NCBI GenBank assembly: GCA_006218035.1
Contig: VBWC01000011.1
Coordinates: forward strand, 62,001 to 126,000
Length of the DNA stretch: 64,000 bases
Direction: 5' to 3'
Source: Gammaproteobacteria bacterium
GTDB taxonomy: Bacteria; Pseudomonadota; Gammaproteobacteria; VBWC01
Shown: in pieces, positions 5,996 to 21,331 of the stretch
Layout of the letters: every line of letters begins with the position of its first letter
Numbering within the stretch: position 1 is the stretch's first letter
Position numbers and translations under genes: made by a program
Notes under the pieces: model-generated
Databases searched by the model: none
Told to the model about the DNA's origin: nothing
What the model saw: the letters and a program-made list of their open reading frames with translations, nothing else

Positions 5996-6199
5996 TCAGC
6001 GTCCTGTCTTCTGTCCCTGCTGTCCGCAGGTAGACGCACCGAGCAGAAAATACGCCGGGCACCATCCGGCAAACGCGGTGAAAAGAAAAACCAGTCCGAT
6101 GGCGCCCCACCCGCTACCGAAGTAGATACCTGCACCGATAACCGCAAGCCCTGCGACGATTCGTATCACGCGATCCGTTTTTCCGACGTTGCATTTCAT
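5996..6199 (-). CDS. DUF2892 (YgaP-type transmembrane) protein
   Basis: The 67-residue inner-membrane protein belongs to the DUF2892 family, the membrane portion of E. coli YgaP. The N-terminus MKCNVGKTDRVIRIVAG is typical. Two hydrophobic segments follow (about residues 14-31 and 33-50) with conserved cysteines in FAGWCPAYFLLGASTC. The ATG at 6199 has an AGAGGGA ribosome binding site and is preferred to the start at 6232. DUF2892 proteins are repeatedly found with rhodanese, persulfide dioxygenase and BigR/YgaV regulators, which fits the regulator encoded just upstream. A 93-nt structured spacer separates it from that regulator, so it may be the distal gene of the RND operon or have its own promoter. 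Confidence 0.9.
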   Translation of the reverse strand: MKCNVGKTDRVIRIVAGLAVIGAGIYFGSGWGAIGLVFLFTAFAGWCPAYFLLGASTCGQQGQKTGR

Positions 6200-6220
6200 G
6201 ATGGTTCCCTCTTGCTGTCC

Positions 6221-6261
6221 GTAACACAGCATGGAAAGGCTGTATCCATGCTTTGCGTTAC
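6221..6261 (-). other. Stem-loop between regulator and distal DUF2892 gene
   Basis: AGCATGGA (6228-6235) pairs perfectly with TCCATGCT (6245-6252), and GTAAC (6221-6225) with GTTAC (6257-6261), giving an extended hairpin with small internal loops. No T-tract follows on the minus strand, so it looks more like a processing or mRNA-stability element than a clean terminator. Confidence 0.5.
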
Positions 6262-6292
6262 TCTATTTTAAAAGTGCCTTTTCTTGTTGGCT

Positions 6293-6739
6293 TCATTTCA
6301 ACGTACAAAAAATATCAGTCCGTTCGTTAACGCCTAACAGGCTGTTGAGAAACAGCCTGCTAAGGAAGCTCTGATTTATTCTGCTATTGTTATTCCCGTA
6401 CCCTCCGGGCATAAACTTCGCGGGAATCCAGTAAACCGTTGAATTTGTAGCCGGACAATAAATTGACTGCAGCGCCTTGATGACGCGCTTGAAGCCGGGC
6501 TGCGCCAGGCGATAGTAAACCTGTGTTCCGCGCCGTTCCGGCACAACGATGTTCAGCAGCCTCATCTTCGCAAGATGTTGCGAGAGGTTGGACTGCGATG
6601 TGCCGGTCGCCTCGACCAGTTCGCTGACATTCATCGGCCGGTCGGCGAGATAGCACAGAATTGCCAACCTGACTTCATGGGCGATCGCACGCAGACCTTC
6701 CGCTGCGTCTTCGATGCTGCGTTCCGGAAACTGCTTCAT
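6293..6739 (-). CDS. ArsR-family repressor of the YgaV/BigR/SqrR persulfide-sensing type, with abnormal C-terminal extension
   Basis: The protein has 148 residues, while family members have about 100-110. The ATG at 6739 is chosen because the family N-terminus (AAEGLRAIAHEVRLAILCYL) follows directly; the earlier start at 6883 lies inside the preceding gene. The winged helix spans about residues 15-90 with recognition helix SQSNLSQHLAKMRLL. Cys29 (in AILC) and Cys95 (in SIYC) occupy the positions of the redox pair that forms disulfide or polysulfide bridges in BigR, SqrR and YgaV. After Cys95 the frame runs through a dispersed repeat (6392-6431), adding WIPAKFMPGGYGN and a further tail. It lies 17 nt behind a DUF2892 gene and probably represses the operon promoter at 11527-11555. 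Confidence 0.88.
   Translation of the reverse strand: MKQFPERSIEDAAEGLRAIAHEVRLAILCYLADRPMNVSELVEATGTSQSNLSQHLAKMRLLNIVVPERRGTQVYYRLAQPGFKRVIKALQSIYCPATNSTVYWIPAKFMPGGYGNNNSRINQSFLSRLFLNSLLGVNERTDIFCTLK
6338..6359. repeat. Hairpin CAGGCTGTT-GAGA-AACAGCCTG
   Basis: A perfect 9-bp stem with a 4-nt loop lies inside the 3' extension of the ArsR reading frame. A degenerate copy (two substitutions) lies at 20626-20647. Both copies lie near a 40-bp shared repeat, so this may be a mobile or terminator-derived repeat family. Confidence 0.6.
6392..6431 (-). repeat. 40-bp dispersed dRS3-like repeat, copy 1
   Basis: This 40-base block is identical to 20091-20130 on the opposite strand. Its core is bounded by ATTCCCG and CGGGAAT, as in dRS3-like repeats of Proteobacteria. 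Here it is translated as part of the ArsR-family regulator, encoding YWIPAKFMPGGYGN. Confidence 0.85.
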
Positions 6740-6756
6740 TAGCTGTTGTGATCCAC

Positions 6757-6990
6757 TCAATGCTGGGTGGCCGTGTCTGCGCAACCCGACTTGACACCGA
6801 GCCGCAGCAGAATCTTCTCCATCAGGCACCAGCGCGTGAAGCCGGATTGAAACAGATTCAATCCAACAAATGCGGTGAACCACAGCCAGGTCGGTTGTGT
6901 GAGCACGACATCGTTATAGATAGCCGCGAGCGCCAGTGACAGCAGGACGATGCTACCGGCAATGATGCGTATCAGTCGTTCGGTATTCAT
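6757..6990 (-). CDS. DUF2892 (YgaP-type transmembrane) protein
   Basis: The 77-residue inner-membrane protein has an N-terminus NTERLIRIIAGSIVLLSLAL and a second hydrophobic segment LWFTAFVGLNLFQSGFTRWCLMEKIL. This is the DUF2892 pattern with the conserved cysteine found at the end of the YgaP membrane domain. It is distinct from the other DUF2892 protein encoded at 5996-6199, which has the MKCNVG start. The gene is 33 nt downstream of the RND pump and 17 nt upstream of the ArsR regulator, so it is inside the operon. In YgaP this region anchors a rhodanese. Here no rhodanese domain is attached and the role is unknown. Confidence 0.9.
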   Translation of the reverse strand: MNTERLIRIIAGSIVLLSLALAAIYNDVVLTQPTWLWFTAFVGLNLFQSGFTRWCLMEKILLRLGVKSGCADTATQH

Positions 6991-7023
6991 TGTATTTACC
7001 TCTTGGTTGACGACAAATTATTT

Positions 7024-10000
7024 TCAGATTTTCCGGCGTTGCCATAAGTAGTAGATCAGCGGAATCACGAACAACGTCAGCACGGTTGACGCCAGTGTGC
7101 CGAACGCCATCGATACACCGAGCCCGCCGAACACGGGATCCATGATCAGGATGGAGCTGCCGGCGATAATGGCCAGCGCGGTCAGCAGGATCGGCCGCGC
7201 ACGCACCGCGCCTGCTTCGCGCACGGCATCCTCCAGGCTCGCGCCTTGCGCGCGATAAGCCAGAATGAAATCGATCAGCAGAAGAGAATTACGCACGACG
7301 ATACCGGCCAGCGCGATCATGCCGATCATCGACGTCGCCGTGAACGGCTGTTGTGTAATCCAGTGACCGGGAAATATGCCGATCATCGTCAACGGGATCG
7401 CGCCCATCACGATCAACGGCAGGATGAAGCCGCCATAGTACGCAACGAGCAGCAGATAGATCAGTACCAGCGCGACGATGAACGCGGCACCGAGATCACG
7501 GAATACATCCAGCGTCAGGCGCATCTCGCCATCCCATAACAACTGGTAACCGAAGGTGTTGTCGGGAACCGAGCGCGTGAAGCCCATTCCGCCAGTGGTC
7601 AGGCGTGAACCCGCGGCGACATCCACGCCATCAAGCTGCGCGTCCATCGCGAGCAGCGGATAGACCTGCGAACGTGTCGCCGGTTCGGCGCTGACATAGG
7701 CGACCGGGTTCATGTCCTTGGTATATATCGGCCTGTCAGCCACAACTTCCTCGATCCGTGCCACGGCTGCCGCAGGAATCTGATCGCCCCTGTCATTGGT
7801 GATGAAAAGGCGGTCGAAGTCGCGCGGCGCGATACGAAAATGCCGCGGCATTTGAATGCGGATCGGCACCGGTTCACGTGCGGTGGGTACCTGAAGCTTG
7901 CCTATGTCATGGCCGCCGACGAAGTTTCGCATGAGCTCGCCGAGCTGACCGGCGTCCACACCGGCAAGCGCCGCCTTTTCCTTGTCGACCATCACGCGGT
8001 ATTCGATCTGGTCGTCGCCCACGGAATCGTCATGATCGACGACATCCCATGTTGCGGAAAACTGCTGTCTGACGCGCCGGGCGATGTCGCGTATCCTGTC
8101 ATAATCCGGCCCGTAAACTTCAGCGAGAAAGGTCGCCCGCACCGGCGGGCCAGGCGGATCCTCGACGAGTTTTATGTTCGCGTCCGGCCATGCCGCGTAT
8201 ACCGGTTCAAGCTGTCGACGCAACTCAAGGACAATATCTTCCGATTGCATCCGGCGATCGCGTTTATCAACCAGGTTGACGCGTATTTCAGCGACATGCA
8301 TGCCGCGTTTGTTGACAGCGCCTCTCAGCATGCCGTTGAAATCGACCGGACCGGCGATGCCGACGTAGGTTTCGTAGTCGGTGATCACCGGTTGACGGCG
8401 CAGCACATTACCCACGTCACGGGCGACGGCGTCGGTAATTTCAAGCGGCGTGCCTTCCGGCATGTCGATGGTGATATTGAATGTGTTCTTGTCCGCCTTC
8501 GGCAGCATCTTCAATTCCACGGTGCCCGGTGTCGGCGGTCCATTGACACCGGCGGGCCGGACGAACTGCCACACAACCTGCCACATGGCGAGCATCATCA
8601 ACACGCCGGTCACTGCGAAAAAGATCGTGCGCCGGCGTCGCGAATCAAACAGCGGTGAAGATAACCGCGTATAAAGACGTTGCAACCAATCCGGTCCGCC
8701 GGCTTGCGTTGATTCGTGGCGAACCGTCTGGACAGGCAGCCAGCGCAACGCGATCCACGGCGTCAGCATGTAGGCGATGATCAACGATGCCAGCATCGCG
8801 ACCGGTACGTTGAACGGAATCGGCCCCATGTACGGTCCCATCATGCCGGTGACGAACGCCATCGGAATAAACGCAAGTATCACCGTTAACGTTGCCATGA
8901 TGGTCGGGGGGCCGGTTTCATTGGTCGCCTCGATAATGACACGGGCCTTGTCTGCGGCCGTGTCTGTTATCGTCGTCAGGCTCTTGGCCAGGTGCCGGTG
9001 GATATTTTCGACAACGACGATCGCATCATCCACGAGCAGGCCAAGAGACAGGATCAGCGCGAACAGCGTGATCCGGTTGATCGTCTGGTCGGCAAGCAGT
9101 CCTGCCGCGAGCACAATAAACAGTATCAGGGGAATGTTCAGCGTGACTATGGAGGCTTCGCGCCAGCCAAGAAACACCAACAGGATGACGATAACGCTGG
9201 CGATCGCCATGCCCAGATGCTCGATCAGCATGTTGACGGCGGCGTTGGCCTCCGCGCCGGAGTCGCGTGTGACGGTGACCATCACGTCATCGGGAATGAA
9301 GTCGCCCTGCAGCGCAGCAACGCGATCACGGATACGCCCGGCGATCGCCACGGCGTTTGTGCCGCGCTTCTTGGCCAGCGTCAGCGTAACGGCCGCATGT
9401 TCCGGCTCGCTGGCGGAAGCGAGACCGGTTTTGGATGCTCCACCGAAACCGATACGATGCACATGCCCGATTTCCCCGACGCCGTCGCGTATGTCCGCGA
9501 CATCACTTAGATACACCAGTCGGTTATTGCGCGCGGCGACCACAATGTTCTCGATGTCACTGACCGAAGCGAGAGCGCCCTTGAGCCGGATGGTTTTTAC
9601 GCGATTGGCGTCAACCGCGTAACCGGTAGGCAGGTCGCTGTTCTCCACGCCGAGGCGCTTGTGCAGCGTGGTCAGTGATACCTCGTGCGCCTCAAGCCGC
9701 GCGGGATCGATCTCGACCGTGATCTGACGGTTACGCCCGCCGATCACGTCCAGCACCGACACGCCGGGCACCTGGGCCAGCTGCTCCCTGACGCGGTCGG
9801 CGAGTTCCTTGAGGGCTAGTTCGTTATGCGTATCGCTCGATAATGTAATCGCGACGATTGGCACGTCATCGACGTCGAGCGGTTTGACGAGCGGCTCGGA
9901 TGCGCCCGGTGGAATCCGGTCAAGGTTATGCATCATGCGGTCATAGAGTTTGACGAGGCTGGCTTCCTTGTCCTCGCCGACATTAAATTGCACCGTCACG

Positions 10001-10290
10001 ATGCCAAGTGAATCCAGCGCCATGCCGAACGTGTGATCGACGCCTGGCATTTCACGCAACACCATCTCCATCGGCCGGACCACAAGATTCAATATTTCCT
10101 CTACGGTCGCGCCCGGCATCGATACAGAAACATTTGCCGTTGGTACATCGATCTGCGGATTTTCCTCGCGCGGCGTTACAAACAGCGCGACGAGGCCGAC
10201 CAGAAAGATCACGAGGCTCAATAGCGGCGTGATATGCGAGCTCATCGCGGCGCGCCCCAGCCGGCCCGCGATGTTGAGTTTGTCACTCAT
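7024..10290 (-). CDS. RND efflux transporter permease (HAE1/AcrB-like)
   Basis: The 1088-residue inner-membrane protein has RND architecture: TM1 at about residues 20-40, a large periplasmic loop, a TM2-6 block near residues 350-520, a second loop, and a C-terminal TM block. The proton-relay region LILSLGLLVDDAIVVVENIHRH contains the paired aspartates of TM4. The porter-domain start NVSVSMPGATVEEILNLVVRPME is typical. The last segment (GGLGVSMAFGTLASTVLTLFVIPLIYYLW) closes the fold. It overlaps the adaptor gene upstream by 8 nt and is followed after 33 nt by DUF2892 and ArsR genes. Substrate cannot be read from sequence. The operon context suggests sulfide- or persulfide-linked stress. No outer-membrane channel gene is present nearby. 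Confidence 0.95.
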   Translation of the reverse strand: MSDKLNIAGRLGRAAMSSHITPLLSLVIFLVGLVALFVTPREENPQIDVPTANVSVSMPGATVEEILNLVVRPMEMVLREMPGVDHTFGMALDSLGIVTVQFNVGEDKEASLVKLYDRMMHNLDRIPPGASEPLVKPLDVDDVPIVAITLSSDTHNELALKELADRVREQLAQVPGVSVLDVIGGRNRQITVEIDPARLEAHEVSLTTLHKRLGVENSDLPTGYAVDANRVKTIRLKGALASVSDIENIVVAARNNRLVYLSDVADIRDGVGEIGHVHRIGFGGASKTGLASASEPEHAAVTLTLAKKRGTNAVAIAGRIRDRVAALQGDFIPDDVMVTVTRDSGAEANAAVNMLIEHLGMAIASVIVILLVFLGWREASIVTLNIPLILFIVLAAGLLADQTINRITLFALILSLGLLVDDAIVVVENIHRHLAKSLTTITDTAADKARVIIEATNETGPPTIMATLTVILAFIPMAFVTGMMGPYMGPIPFNVPVAMLASLIIAYMLTPWIALRWLPVQTVRHESTQAGGPDWLQRLYTRLSSPLFDSRRRRTIFFAVTGVLMMLAMWQVVWQFVRPAGVNGPPTPGTVELKMLPKADKNTFNITIDMPEGTPLEITDAVARDVGNVLRRQPVITDYETYVGIAGPVDFNGMLRGAVNKRGMHVAEIRVNLVDKRDRRMQSEDIVLELRRQLEPVYAAWPDANIKLVEDPPGPPVRATFLAEVYGPDYDRIRDIARRVRQQFSATWDVVDHDDSVGDDQIEYRVMVDKEKAALAGVDAGQLGELMRNFVGGHDIGKLQVPTAREPVPIRIQMPRHFRIAPRDFDRLFITNDRGDQIPAAAVARIEEVVADRPIYTKDMNPVAYVSAEPATRSQVYPLLAMDAQLDGVDVAAGSRLTTGGMGFTRSVPDNTFGYQLLWDGEMRLTLDVFRDLGAAFIVALVLIYLLLVAYYGGFILPLIVMGAIPLTMIGIFPGHWITQQPFTATSMIGMIALAGIVVRNSLLLIDFILAYRAQGASLEDAVREAGAVRARPILLTALAIIAGSSILIMDPVFGGLGVSMAFGTLASTVLTLFVIPLIYYLWQRRKI

Positions 10291-11476
10291 TGCTGTCCTG
10301 TCCAGGAACTGGCGTTGCGCTCTGAGGTAATGGGGCGGGTATCGCTGCTTCTATGCGATCGCCGGTACGCAACGTCGCGGTGTTGGTGATCGCAATGCGA
10401 TCGTTTGCGCTCAATCCAGCGACGATTTCTGTCTGATCCTGCCAATGGCGTCCGGTGCGCACCATGCGAAAGTGCGCAATGGCGTTTTCGTCGACGAGAT
10501 ACACACCCGGGATGTCCGAGCGCTCGATGATCGCGCTGTTCGGTATTGCGATGCCGGTCTTTTCGCCAACCGGGAATTCCACGCGGGCGAACATGCCGGC
10601 GCGTAGATCGCTGACATCACTCAGTACCACCTTGACCAGATAGCGGTAAGTCCCCGTCTCGCCGGAGCGCACGACACGGGTTACCGTGCCGGAACCCTGT
10701 TTTCGCAGCGCGTCTATCGAAACCTGGACCTTATCGCCGGGGTTGATCTGATTGACGTAACTCTCCTTGATAAATGTCTCGACCTCGATGTTTGACGGAT
10801 CCTCAATAGTCAGTATCGGCGCGCCCGGTGTTGCCATGTCGCCATTTTGCTTATGCTTGGTTACCACGACGCCGGTGACGGGCGAGCGGATGTCCGTGTA
10901 CTCAAGTTGTGCGCGTATCTGGCTGGTGGCGGCGTCGGCGGCATGGACGCTTTCGCGCGTGACGTCATAACGCAGCCGCGCCTGTTCGACGGCGCGTTCG
11001 GATATCGCCTTTTGGGCAAGCAGCTTCTGATGACGCTCAAGATCGGCACGCGCTTCTTCAGACTGTGCGCGTGCCTCCGAAAGGCGCGCCTGCACTTCAT
11101 TCAACCGGTTGGTAATTTCGGTGGCATCGATCGTCAGCAGACGCTGTCCCGTTGTCACAGCCTGACCTTCGCGCACCGCAAGATTGCGTATCTCGCCGAG
11201 TAAGCGTGACGCGATGTCAACGCGCCCGTTGGCTACGAGCGTCCCGGCTGTCGTATAGGTTTCCGGGATTGCCTGCGCAATAACGTTGATGACGTCGGCT
11301 GTCACGGTTATTGCCACCGGCTTACTTTCGTTGTCCGTCCCGGTGCCGCATCCGCCGGTCAACAACGTGACGACGATAACGGCGGCGAGGCCGGCGATCG
11401 CAAGTCGCCCCGGGGAGTGTTGATCCGGATTTCTCGTTGAGCCGGAGAATTCCTGTTGCCTGTCAGAAGCTCTCAT
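10283..11476 (-). CDS. RND periplasmic adaptor (membrane fusion protein), putative lipoprotein
   Basis: The 397-residue HlyD/AcrA-type adaptor bridges an RND pump and an outer-membrane channel. A hydrophobic segment at about residues 27-44 ends LLTGGCG, a plausible though non-ideal lipobox. The barrel-sandwich halves flank a coiled-coil hairpin (about residues 115-170, RLSEARAQSEEARADLERHQ region). The second half-lipoyl motif reads YTDIRSPVTGVVVTKHKQNGD. Beta-barrel and membrane-proximal domains follow, up to the polar, proline-rich tail. It is the first gene of the operon, about 44 nt downstream of the predicted transcription start, and overlaps the pump gene by 8 nt. Confidence 0.94.
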   Translation of the reverse strand: MRASDRQQEFSGSTRNPDQHSPGRLAIAGLAAVIVVTLLTGGCGTGTDNESKPVAITVTADVINVIAQAIPETYTTAGTLVANGRVDIASRLLGEIRNLAVREGQAVTTGQRLLTIDATEITNRLNEVQARLSEARAQSEEARADLERHQKLLAQKAISERAVEQARLRYDVTRESVHAADAATSQIRAQLEYTDIRSPVTGVVVTKHKQNGDMATPGAPILTIEDPSNIEVETFIKESYVNQINPGDKVQVSIDALRKQGSGTVTRVVRSGETGTYRYLVKVVLSDVSDLRAGMFARVEFPVGEKTGIAIPNSAIIERSDIPGVYLVDENAIAHFRMVRTGRHWQDQTEIVAGLSANDRIAITNTATLRTGDRIEAAIPAPLPQSATPVPGQDSNE

Positions 11477-11526
11477 GGCCGGGGTTCCCTGTTGGATATG
11501 AATTGAAAAACTGGCGGACCAGATCC

Positions 11527-11555
11527 ACTATATTAGTATTATCTAATATAGTAAA
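11527..11555 (-). promoter_or_regulatory. Promoter with overlapping ArsR-type operator for the RND operon
   Basis: ACTATATTAG (11527-11536) and CTAATATAGT (11543-11552) form a perfect 10-bp inverted repeat around TATTAT. On the minus strand a -35 box TTTACT (11550-11555) and a -10 box TATAGT (11527-11532) are 17 nt apart, so the dyad fills the spacer and -10 region. AT-rich dyads of this kind are the operators of BigR/SqrR-like ArsR repressors, and such a regulator is encoded in the same operon. Binding by that regulator is inferred. Confidence 0.8.
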
Positions 11556-19848: not shown

Positions 19849-20203
19849 ATTGCCCGAAAATTCAGTGGTGCGGTTGTTGTATATCGTTATGCTAGATTAC
19901 CTTACCATGTTATCGCGGTGTCGCCGGGCCGTGCGCAAGGGCGCGTCTGATCGGTTTTCGGTCCGTCATTCCCGAGCATGCGCGAGCCCATGGATGGGCG
20001 AGATTGCGTCCTGCCGGGAGCAAGGACCGAGACCATGTCGGGAACCAATGGTCGAGACCCGGAATCCAGCAACACACTGTTTCGAAAGCGCTGGATTCCC
20101 GCGAAGTTTATGCCCGGAGGGTACGGGAATGACGAAAAGGTGATTAATGTGAGAGGCTGGATTAACAATATCAAGCAGGTTTCCCTGGCGGTAAACCGAA
20201 GGA
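19849..20203. other. Repeat-containing intergenic region
   Basis: This 355-bp gap between divergent genes holds the composite repeat at 19964-20134 and no convincing coding frame. Translations across it in several frames are products of the repeat. Confidence 0.7.
19964..20134. repeat. Composite palindromic repeat (dRS3-like), copy 2
   Basis: A 171-bp unit is bounded by perfect 11-bp terminal inverted repeats, CGTCATTCCCG and CGGGAATGACG. Inside, GGAATCCAG (20061-20069) and CTGGATTCC (20091-20099) form a second dyad. The right half (20091-20130) is identical to the 40-bp repeat inside the ArsR gene at 6392-6431. The structure resembles non-autonomous dRS3-type insertion units. Confidence 0.8.
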
Positions 20204-20617: not shown

Positions 20618-20625
20618 TCGTCCGG

Positions 20626-20647
20626 CAGGCGGTTTCTCAACAGTCTG
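20626..20647. repeat. Degenerate copy of the CAGGCTGTT hairpin
   Basis: CAGGCGGTTTCTCAACAGTCTG differs at two positions from the reverse complement of 6338-6359. It sits at the convergent ends of the membrane-protein and YugP genes and may act as a weak terminator. Confidence 0.5.
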
Positions 20648-21331
20648 TCAGCGGCGCAGTACGGCGATCCAGCGTGCCATATTGAGCAGGCCGGCGAGCG
20701 AGCTTGCCACATAGGTGAACGCGCAGGCGCGCAGTATGCGGCGGACGTGACGTTCCTCGTCGTCATTGATATACCGGCCGCCTTTCAACAGCGGCAGCGC
20801 CCGCGTGAAGCTGGCATCCCATTCGGTCGGCAGCGTGACCAGATGCACCAGCGAGCTCACGCCGATCGACACCAGCCCGATCAGAAACATGGCCAGACCG
20901 GCGGATGGTGCCCGTGCGGCGAGCGCCACCACCGGAATCGCCAGCATCGCGACCGAGCCGATCTTCTCGGCGTGCCGGGCGATGATCACCAGCCGGGTAC
21001 GTGCCCGCAGCGGCGGATAGCCGGCGTGGTCCTGGATCGCATGGCCGACTTCGTGCGCGGCAGTGGCGATCGCCGTCAGTGACTTGCCGTTGATGTTTTC
21101 CGGCTGCAGGCGCACACACCTGGCGATGGGATCGTAATGATCGCCGGCCGCGGTGGTTTCCACGCCGACGTTTTGCAGGCCGCACTGGTTCAGCAGATGG
21201 CGCGCGAGCTCGCCGCCTGTCCCCGGGAAATGCGGTTGCGGCTTGCTGTACCGCGCGAGCACGCGGCGCACCCACCACTGGGGCCCGAAGATCAGCGCGA
21301 TGACGACCAGGAACAGCAGTACGAAATGCAT
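20648..21331 (-). CDS. YugP-type zinc metallopeptidase, membrane-bound
   Basis: The 227-residue protein has an N-terminal membrane segment (LLFLVVIALIFGPQWW), the zinc-binding AAHEVGHAIQ motif at about residues 91-100, and further membrane helices in the C-terminal half (SVAMLAIPVVALAA, AMFLIGLVSIGVSSLVHLV). The glutamate in TEWDASFTRAL is the probable third ligand. This is the YugP (DUF-type neutral zinc metallopeptidase) family, integral membrane proteases of unknown substrate. It seems complete and is monocistronic. Confidence 0.92.
   Translation of the reverse strand: MHFVLLFLVVIALIFGPQWWVRRVLARYSKPQPHFPGTGGELARHLLNQCGLQNVGVETTAAGDHYDPIARCVRLQPENINGKSLTAIATAAHEVGHAIQDHAGYPPLRARTRLVIIARHAEKIGSVAMLAIPVVALAARAPSAGLAMFLIGLVSIGVSSLVHLVTLPTEWDASFTRALPLLKGGRYINDDEERHVRRILRACAFTYVASSLAGLLNMARWIAVLRR

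Follow-up and report, generated by a model that had tools for sequence, protein, structure and literature searches.

Several repressors of the ArsR family lose DNA binding when an intraprotomer sulfur bridge forms between two cysteines (PMC12423496, section 2.1; PMC10509353), and a regulator of this kind is encoded within an RND efflux operon in the DNA analysed here, a 64,000-nucleotide stretch of contig VBWC01000011.1 from a gammaproteobacterium (referred to as the window). Like SqrR of Rhodobacter capsulatus, BigR of Xylella and Acinetobacter, YgaV of E. coli and HlyU of Vibrio, the window regulator combines the winged-helix ArsR fold with an aligned cysteine pair and an AT-rich operator, but it differs from these four in being tied to an RND pump operon, in its low score with the BigR equivalog model and in carrying a repeat-derived tail. 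The E. coli ygaVP operon resembles the window in that a SqrR-type repressor and a YgaP-type (DUF2892) membrane protein are encoded together and autoregulated; YgaP, however, joins a rhodanese to DUF2892, whereas both window proteins consist of the DUF2892 domain (PF11127) alone, without a rhodanese domain, and are accompanied by a pump. The bigR and pdo/sqr sulfide-detoxification operons share with it the type of repressor and the presumed signal, but the window operon has no persulfide dioxygenase, SQR or TauE, and neither of the first two was detected among the scanned neighbours of the operon.

Precedents also exist for the connection between sulfane sulfur and RND pumps. In the MexR-MexAB-OprM system of Pseudomonas aeruginosa, sulfane sulfur inactivates the Cys-based repressor of an RND pump (as cited in PMC8614764), although MexR is a MarR-family and not an ArsR-family protein, the pump is only distantly related and neither DUF2892 nor a rhodanese is involved. 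Section 2.1 of PMC12423496 (2025), an sHdrR survey, states that Cys-pair ArsR genes of the sulfane-sulfur type can adjoin RND efflux pump genes and suggests transport of sulfur compounds; the text of that section deals with regulators of this kind next to RND pumps, but gives no operator, DUF2892 or rhodanese partners, or wider regulon. The original prediction, made from the window alone, that no operon of this composition had been described holds insofar as no paper bringing DUF2892, RND and ArsR together was found in the literature searched, but it has to be narrowed in view of these two cases. Three elements reported below, namely the conservation of the operator, the partnership with DUF2892 and rhodanese proteins and the wider regulon, appear undescribed in the literature consulted. 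RND genes of Allochromatium induced on pyrite were described as RND/CzcA-family metal efflux genes (PMC11267869), and no tie could be made between the RND proteins of the Riftia symbiont (PMC3136470) and the window RND family.

We consider it likely that the window locus is an autoregulated RND efflux operon in which a SqrR/BigR-type ArsR repressor acts on the sequence ATATTAG-N6-CTAATAT and is released by sulfane sulfur, the pump perhaps removing sulfur species. Full-length Pfam matches confirmed five genes on the minus strand in the order adaptor, RND permease, DUF2892a, ArsR and DUF2892b, as had been read from the open reading frames. The adaptor and RND genes overlap by 8 nt, and the following intergenic distances are 33 nt (RND/DUF2892a), 17 nt (DUF2892a/ArsR) and 93 nt (ArsR/DUF2892b). 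In front of the adaptor gene, the proposed 10 bp perfect dyad was confirmed with completely complementary arms, covering the whole −10 hexamer, the spacer and half of the −35 hexamer of the candidate promoter (Table 1). No such dyad was ever produced in shuffled windows, even when three mismatches were allowed (0 expected), and it is the sole near-perfect site in the 3.0 Mb genome. The description of the promoter as the only good one was overstated: it scores 9 of 12, two others score equally, and such matches are no more frequent than in shuffled sequence (3 found versus 3.5 expected). Thus, the candidate promoter is weak by itself, and it is the dyad that carries the weight.

In order to see whether the grouping recurs, ArsR relatives were collected from genome contigs and RND relatives from 369 gammaproteobacterial genomes, 35 of which had a match, and their neighbouring genes were annotated. 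The grouping is kept in a sister genome of the same genus (L038) and recurs widely, across several gammaproteobacterial families and the Zetaproteobacteria. The zetaproteobacterial clusters run ArsR-OMF-MFP-RND-DUF2892 (OMF, outer-membrane factor; MFP, membrane-fusion protein), followed by one or more rhodaneses and, in some, by a further DUF2892. Mariprofundus ferrooxydans PV-1 (L051), for instance, has this order with three rhodaneses and the further DUF2892, and the DUF2892b protein of the window is of the same type as the DUF2892 that ends this and two other zetaproteobacterial clusters (L044, L046, L051). A Legionella sp. (L105) carries ArsR-OMF-RND-DUF2892, while OMF-MFP-RND-DUF2892-ArsR at L149 corresponds to the window order with an outer-membrane gene added. 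ArsR-OMF-MFP-RND together with a rhodanese was found at L143, L152 and L168, two of which also have DUF2892. Distant RND pumps (∼40% identity, L014–L037) had no ArsR gene in their flanks of about 1.5 kb, and only one of them (L028) had DUF2892. The DUF2892 proteins linked to RND pumps group closely into one subfamily, characterized by the motif FTAFVGANLLQSGFTxWC and a cysteine that hardly varies.

The dyad was conserved along with the genes. The flanks of the sister promoter have diverged, and the core TTTACTATATTAGATAATxCTAATATA has been retained. When the consensus ATATTAG-N6-CTAATAT was scored, a strong site being one that matched 12 or more of the 14 positions, such a site stood near the operon start at 19 of the 32 RND-orthologue loci. 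Sites numbered 20 in 14 kb of upstream sequence versus 8 in 492 kb elsewhere (0 and 1, respectively, for the reversed control); among the eight, two are placed between an ArsR and an OMF gene, and others are likewise near the operon. Across 17 whole genomes, 39 sites with no more than one mismatch were found as compared with 2 for the reversed pattern, and as these genomes had been picked for their RND orthologue, most with the operator, the roughly two dozen sites lying off the RND operons are the unbiased part of this count. Several RND operons carry the operator without a local ArsR gene; a search of 13 such genomes turned up a Cys-pair ArsR gene at another place in each, and this suggests that the operon is controlled in trans. 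The dyad is thus a real operator, as originally predicted, and a conserved one, retained upstream of diverged RND operons and in the sister core, and ArsR is its predicted ligand. A consensus for the BigR or SqrR operator was not found as text in the papers searched, of which PMC10509353 gives the hlyA operator oligonucleotide alone.

By sequence, SqrR is the best solved relative of the ArsR core, followed by HlyU, YgaV and BigR, and the AlphaFold model of the core matches the structures of all four, an SmtB entry being first by E-value. Both the HTH_5 match (52.6 bits) and the model indicate the winged-helix architecture of SqrR/BigR-type regulators. Residues C29 and C95 align with the sensing cysteines of SqrR and HlyU at the α2 and α5 positions, are present in every RND-linked ArsR examined and are invariant in 24 aligned relatives, whereas a third cysteine, in a CPxxC motif, is common but not universal among the relatives and has been lost from the window protein. 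With the BigR equivalog model NF040642 the protein reached 66.1 bits, short of the curated cut-off of 155. On these comparisons, the window ArsR is of the SqrR/BigR/YgaV/HlyU kind, as the persulfide-type assignment in the original prediction had it, yet it is not BigR proper. No other SqrR-type ArsR with a Cys pair was found in the host genome, and by analogy with the characterized members the window protein would sense persulfide and derepress the operon.

The open reading frame of this regulator extends to 148 aa, as the codons past C95-P read into a dispersed repeat that accounts for the last 52 residues. Partial copies of the repeat were matched throughout the genome and also at 20091–20133 and 20625–20651 of the window. 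The sister ArsR, 94% identical, ends at 98 aa, and in the window protein residues 98–142 have a predicted pLDDT below 50. A functional role for the C-terminal extension was ruled out by its repeat origin, its absence from relatives and its predicted disorder. As the sensing cysteines survive, the repressor is likely, although not certain, to function despite its tail. In the sister genome, this ArsR/DUF2892 junction is occupied by another, unrelated segment of 1.7 kb (L038, 8300–10030) with a restriction-endonuclease-like gene, Mrr-type as identified by eye, which suggests that the junction is an insertion-prone spot.

Genes found behind the operator at other loci bear on the sulfur connection. 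Sulfur-globule-protein-like genes lie ∼110–125 bp behind it in three cases, one of which scores over the sulfur-globule protein cut-off (L213) and two below it (L211, L216); with an operator in this position, the formation of globules would be tied to a Cys-pair ArsR. A gene for an SQR-like flavoprotein follows the operator in L207 and a stand-alone DUF2892 gene in L209. FadL/TodX-type porin genes stand by the operator in three genomes (L219, L220 and, with one gene between, L208); their products might take up or release hydrophobic sulfur. Taken together, this mix of genes supports a sulfane-sulfur regulon, short of proof, and the rhodaneses of the zetaproteobacterial versions together with the sulfur genes behind the same operator strengthen the sulfur link that had been proposed from the window alone. 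In the host itself, contig C47 (L232, 3613–5999) carries, one after the other, genes for an ArsR-rhodanese fusion, a DsrE-like protein and a type III SQR-like protein, and the presence of these three together makes a source of sulfane sulfur in this organism plausible.

The layout and the conservation of the site strongly suggest that ArsR blocks transcription by sitting over the promoter. Going by its homologues, sulfide oxidation would lead to an accumulation of sulfane sulfur (persulfide, polysulfide), C29 and C95 would become sulfur-bridged and the repressor would leave the dyad. To judge from the spacing of the genes, the entire operon including the repressor would then be induced, that is, the adaptor, the pump, both DUF2892 proteins and ArsR. 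More speculatively, the pump, with an outer-membrane factor supplied in trans, may clear reactive or hydrophobic sulfur species or their reaction products from the periplasm or the inner membrane, and the DUF2892 proteins, joined by rhodaneses in relatives, might aid sulfur transfer at the membrane, a speculation drawn from YgaP and from the rhodanese neighbours. As this pump is found behind the same operator in many sulfur- and iron-oxidizing bacteria, it very probably contributes to sulfur handling in these cells, be it tolerance or movement of sulfur, and it may, as originally inferred, export a sulfur-stress product. As a tentative extension, about which we are more doubtful than hopeful, ATATTAG-N6-CTAATAT could mark a sulfane-sulfur regulon of Gamma- and Zetaproteobacteria, the core of which would be a dedicated RND exporter of zero-valent sulfur or polysulfide that is supplied by DUF2892 proteins and rhodaneses and tied to sulfur-globule proteins and FadL-type porins. 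Little is understood of the way in which polysulfide and zero-valent sulfur cross the envelope of sulfur-handling bacteria; as the pump family can be predicted from gene content and operator in culturable organisms (Mariprofundus), the export step is testable, and the operator sequence offers a handle for finding the regulon in uncultured sulfur and iron oxidizers.

Several observations weigh against a sulfane-sulfur-responsive export operon. A strong site was missing from the scanned interval in 13 of the 32 RND orthologues, a few having one just outside, and many of the remaining operator sites are near genes without an evident sulfur role. Neither dsrA nor soxB was found over cut-off in the host genome, which sets the host apart from canonical sulfur oxidizers of the Sox/rDsr type. 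The window operon contains no rhodanese gene and, unlike most operons of the relatives, no OMF gene, and the aberrant tail of ArsR might impair the repressor. With regard to the missing channel, 14 OEP matches occur elsewhere in the host genome, several of them TolC-type proteins, which can supply it in trans.

The main rival to export of a sulfur substrate is a general efflux role under sulfide, in which reactive sulfur is still the signal for the regulator, but a common multidrug or envelope-stress pump has been recruited to the sulfide response and exports drugs, lipids or damaged molecules instead of sulfur compounds. The permease is indeed HAE-like: it matches ACR_tran over its full length, its translation has the acidic pair of transmembrane segment 4 (GLLVDDAIVVVENIHR), and an adaptor scoring over the RND_mfp cut-off is encoded in the same operon, as in tripartite pumps of this type. 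All named RND subfamily models were far below cut-off, and the nearest solved relatives are multidrug pumps. Induction of MexAB by sulfane sulfur through MexR (as cited in PMC8614764) and the altered antibiotic tolerance of YgaV mutants (PMC9774250) are in keeping with such a role, but the conserved rhodanese and DUF2892 partners and the operator common to sulfur-globule and SQR-like genes point to a sulfur-specific one, and we hold the multidrug alternative to be somewhat unlikely. Comparison with the sister permease gave 126 synonymous versus 53 non-synonymous codon differences, indicating purifying selection.

It is clearly less probable that the signal for the cysteine pair is some other oxidant or electrophile (an organic hydroperoxide, an organotin or heme) and not sulfane sulfur. 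Derepression of ygaVP by tributyltin and an influence of heme on DNA binding by SqrR have been reported (PMC9774250); HlyU of the same subfamily is nevertheless reactive with persulfide and unreactive with peroxide (PMC10509353), and the operator is common to sulfur genes. Still more improbable is an operon for metal or arsenic efflux that is controlled by a metal sensor of the ArsR family. In its favour speak the ArsR/SmtB family membership (NF033788) and the 159 bits of the adaptor with the metal-pump model TIGR00999, though this lies below the cut-off of that model. The helix-turn-helix helix of the window ArsR reads NVSELVEATG and has no CxC-type metal ligand motif, in contrast to the ELCVCEL of the genome's other ArsR; the permease reached 252.9 bits with the CzcA/HME model TIGR00914 (cut-off 701.45) and hence was not assigned to the HME pumps, the cysteine pair fits SqrR, and rhodanese genes occur in the related operons. 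An accidental assembly of neighbours in one strain, to which the varying gene order among lineages and the absence of an outer-membrane gene from the window operon might be attributed, is practically refuted by the survey, as grouping and operator are common to the sister genome, the Zetaproteobacteria, a Legionella sp. and several gammaproteobacterial families.

Table 1. Coordinates and properties of the features of the RND efflux operon in the window
Feature	Position	Strand	Remarks
DUF2892 (YgaP-like transmembrane) protein b	5996..6199	minus	67 aa from likely start, 78 aa from first ATG at 6232; PF11127 78 bits
ArsR-family repressor	6293..6739	minus	ArsR domain residues 1-96 with C29, C95; residues 97-148 repeat-derived tail, predicted disordered
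Dispersed repeat in place of native ArsR 3' end	6332..6451	.	41 genome matches; sister stops after YCPDYC
DUF2892 (YgaP-like transmembrane) protein a, 77 aa	6757..6990	minus	PF11127 49 bits, cut-off 25.3; RND-linked subfamily, ...FTAFVGxNLxQSGFTxWC
RND permease, 1088 aa, HAE-like	7024..10290	minus	ACR_tran 485 bits, full length
Periplasmic adaptor (membrane-fusion protein, RND_mfp), 397 aa	10283..11476	minus	TIGR01730 215 bits, cut-off 94.9; HlyD_3, HlyD_D23
Predicted operator, perfect inverted repeat ACTATATTAG-TATTAT-CTAATATAGT	11527..11552	.	core ATATTAG-N6-CTAATAT; 10-nt arms 100% complementary
Candidate sigma-70 promoter inside operator	11527..11555	minus	-35 TTTACT 11555-11550, -10 TATAGT 11532-11527, spacer 17

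The start of DUF2892b is probably at 6199 rather than at 6232, because its relatives begin with MKCNVG or MKANVG and a purine-rich stretch resembling a ribosome-binding site lies just before this position. At two further loci, which come from two different families (L218 and L221), an operator match was located on the 3' side of citrate synthase-like genes. A second, weak match to the dyad in the host genome, with three mismatches, lies on contig C51 before an unrelated, arsenic-type ArsR gene and was not counted as a second target. The gene in question encodes an ArsR with a CVC motif and stands beside a glyoxalase-like gene (L231, 5946–6798; ArsI/CadI-type as judged by eye), the pair being likely an arsenic operon.

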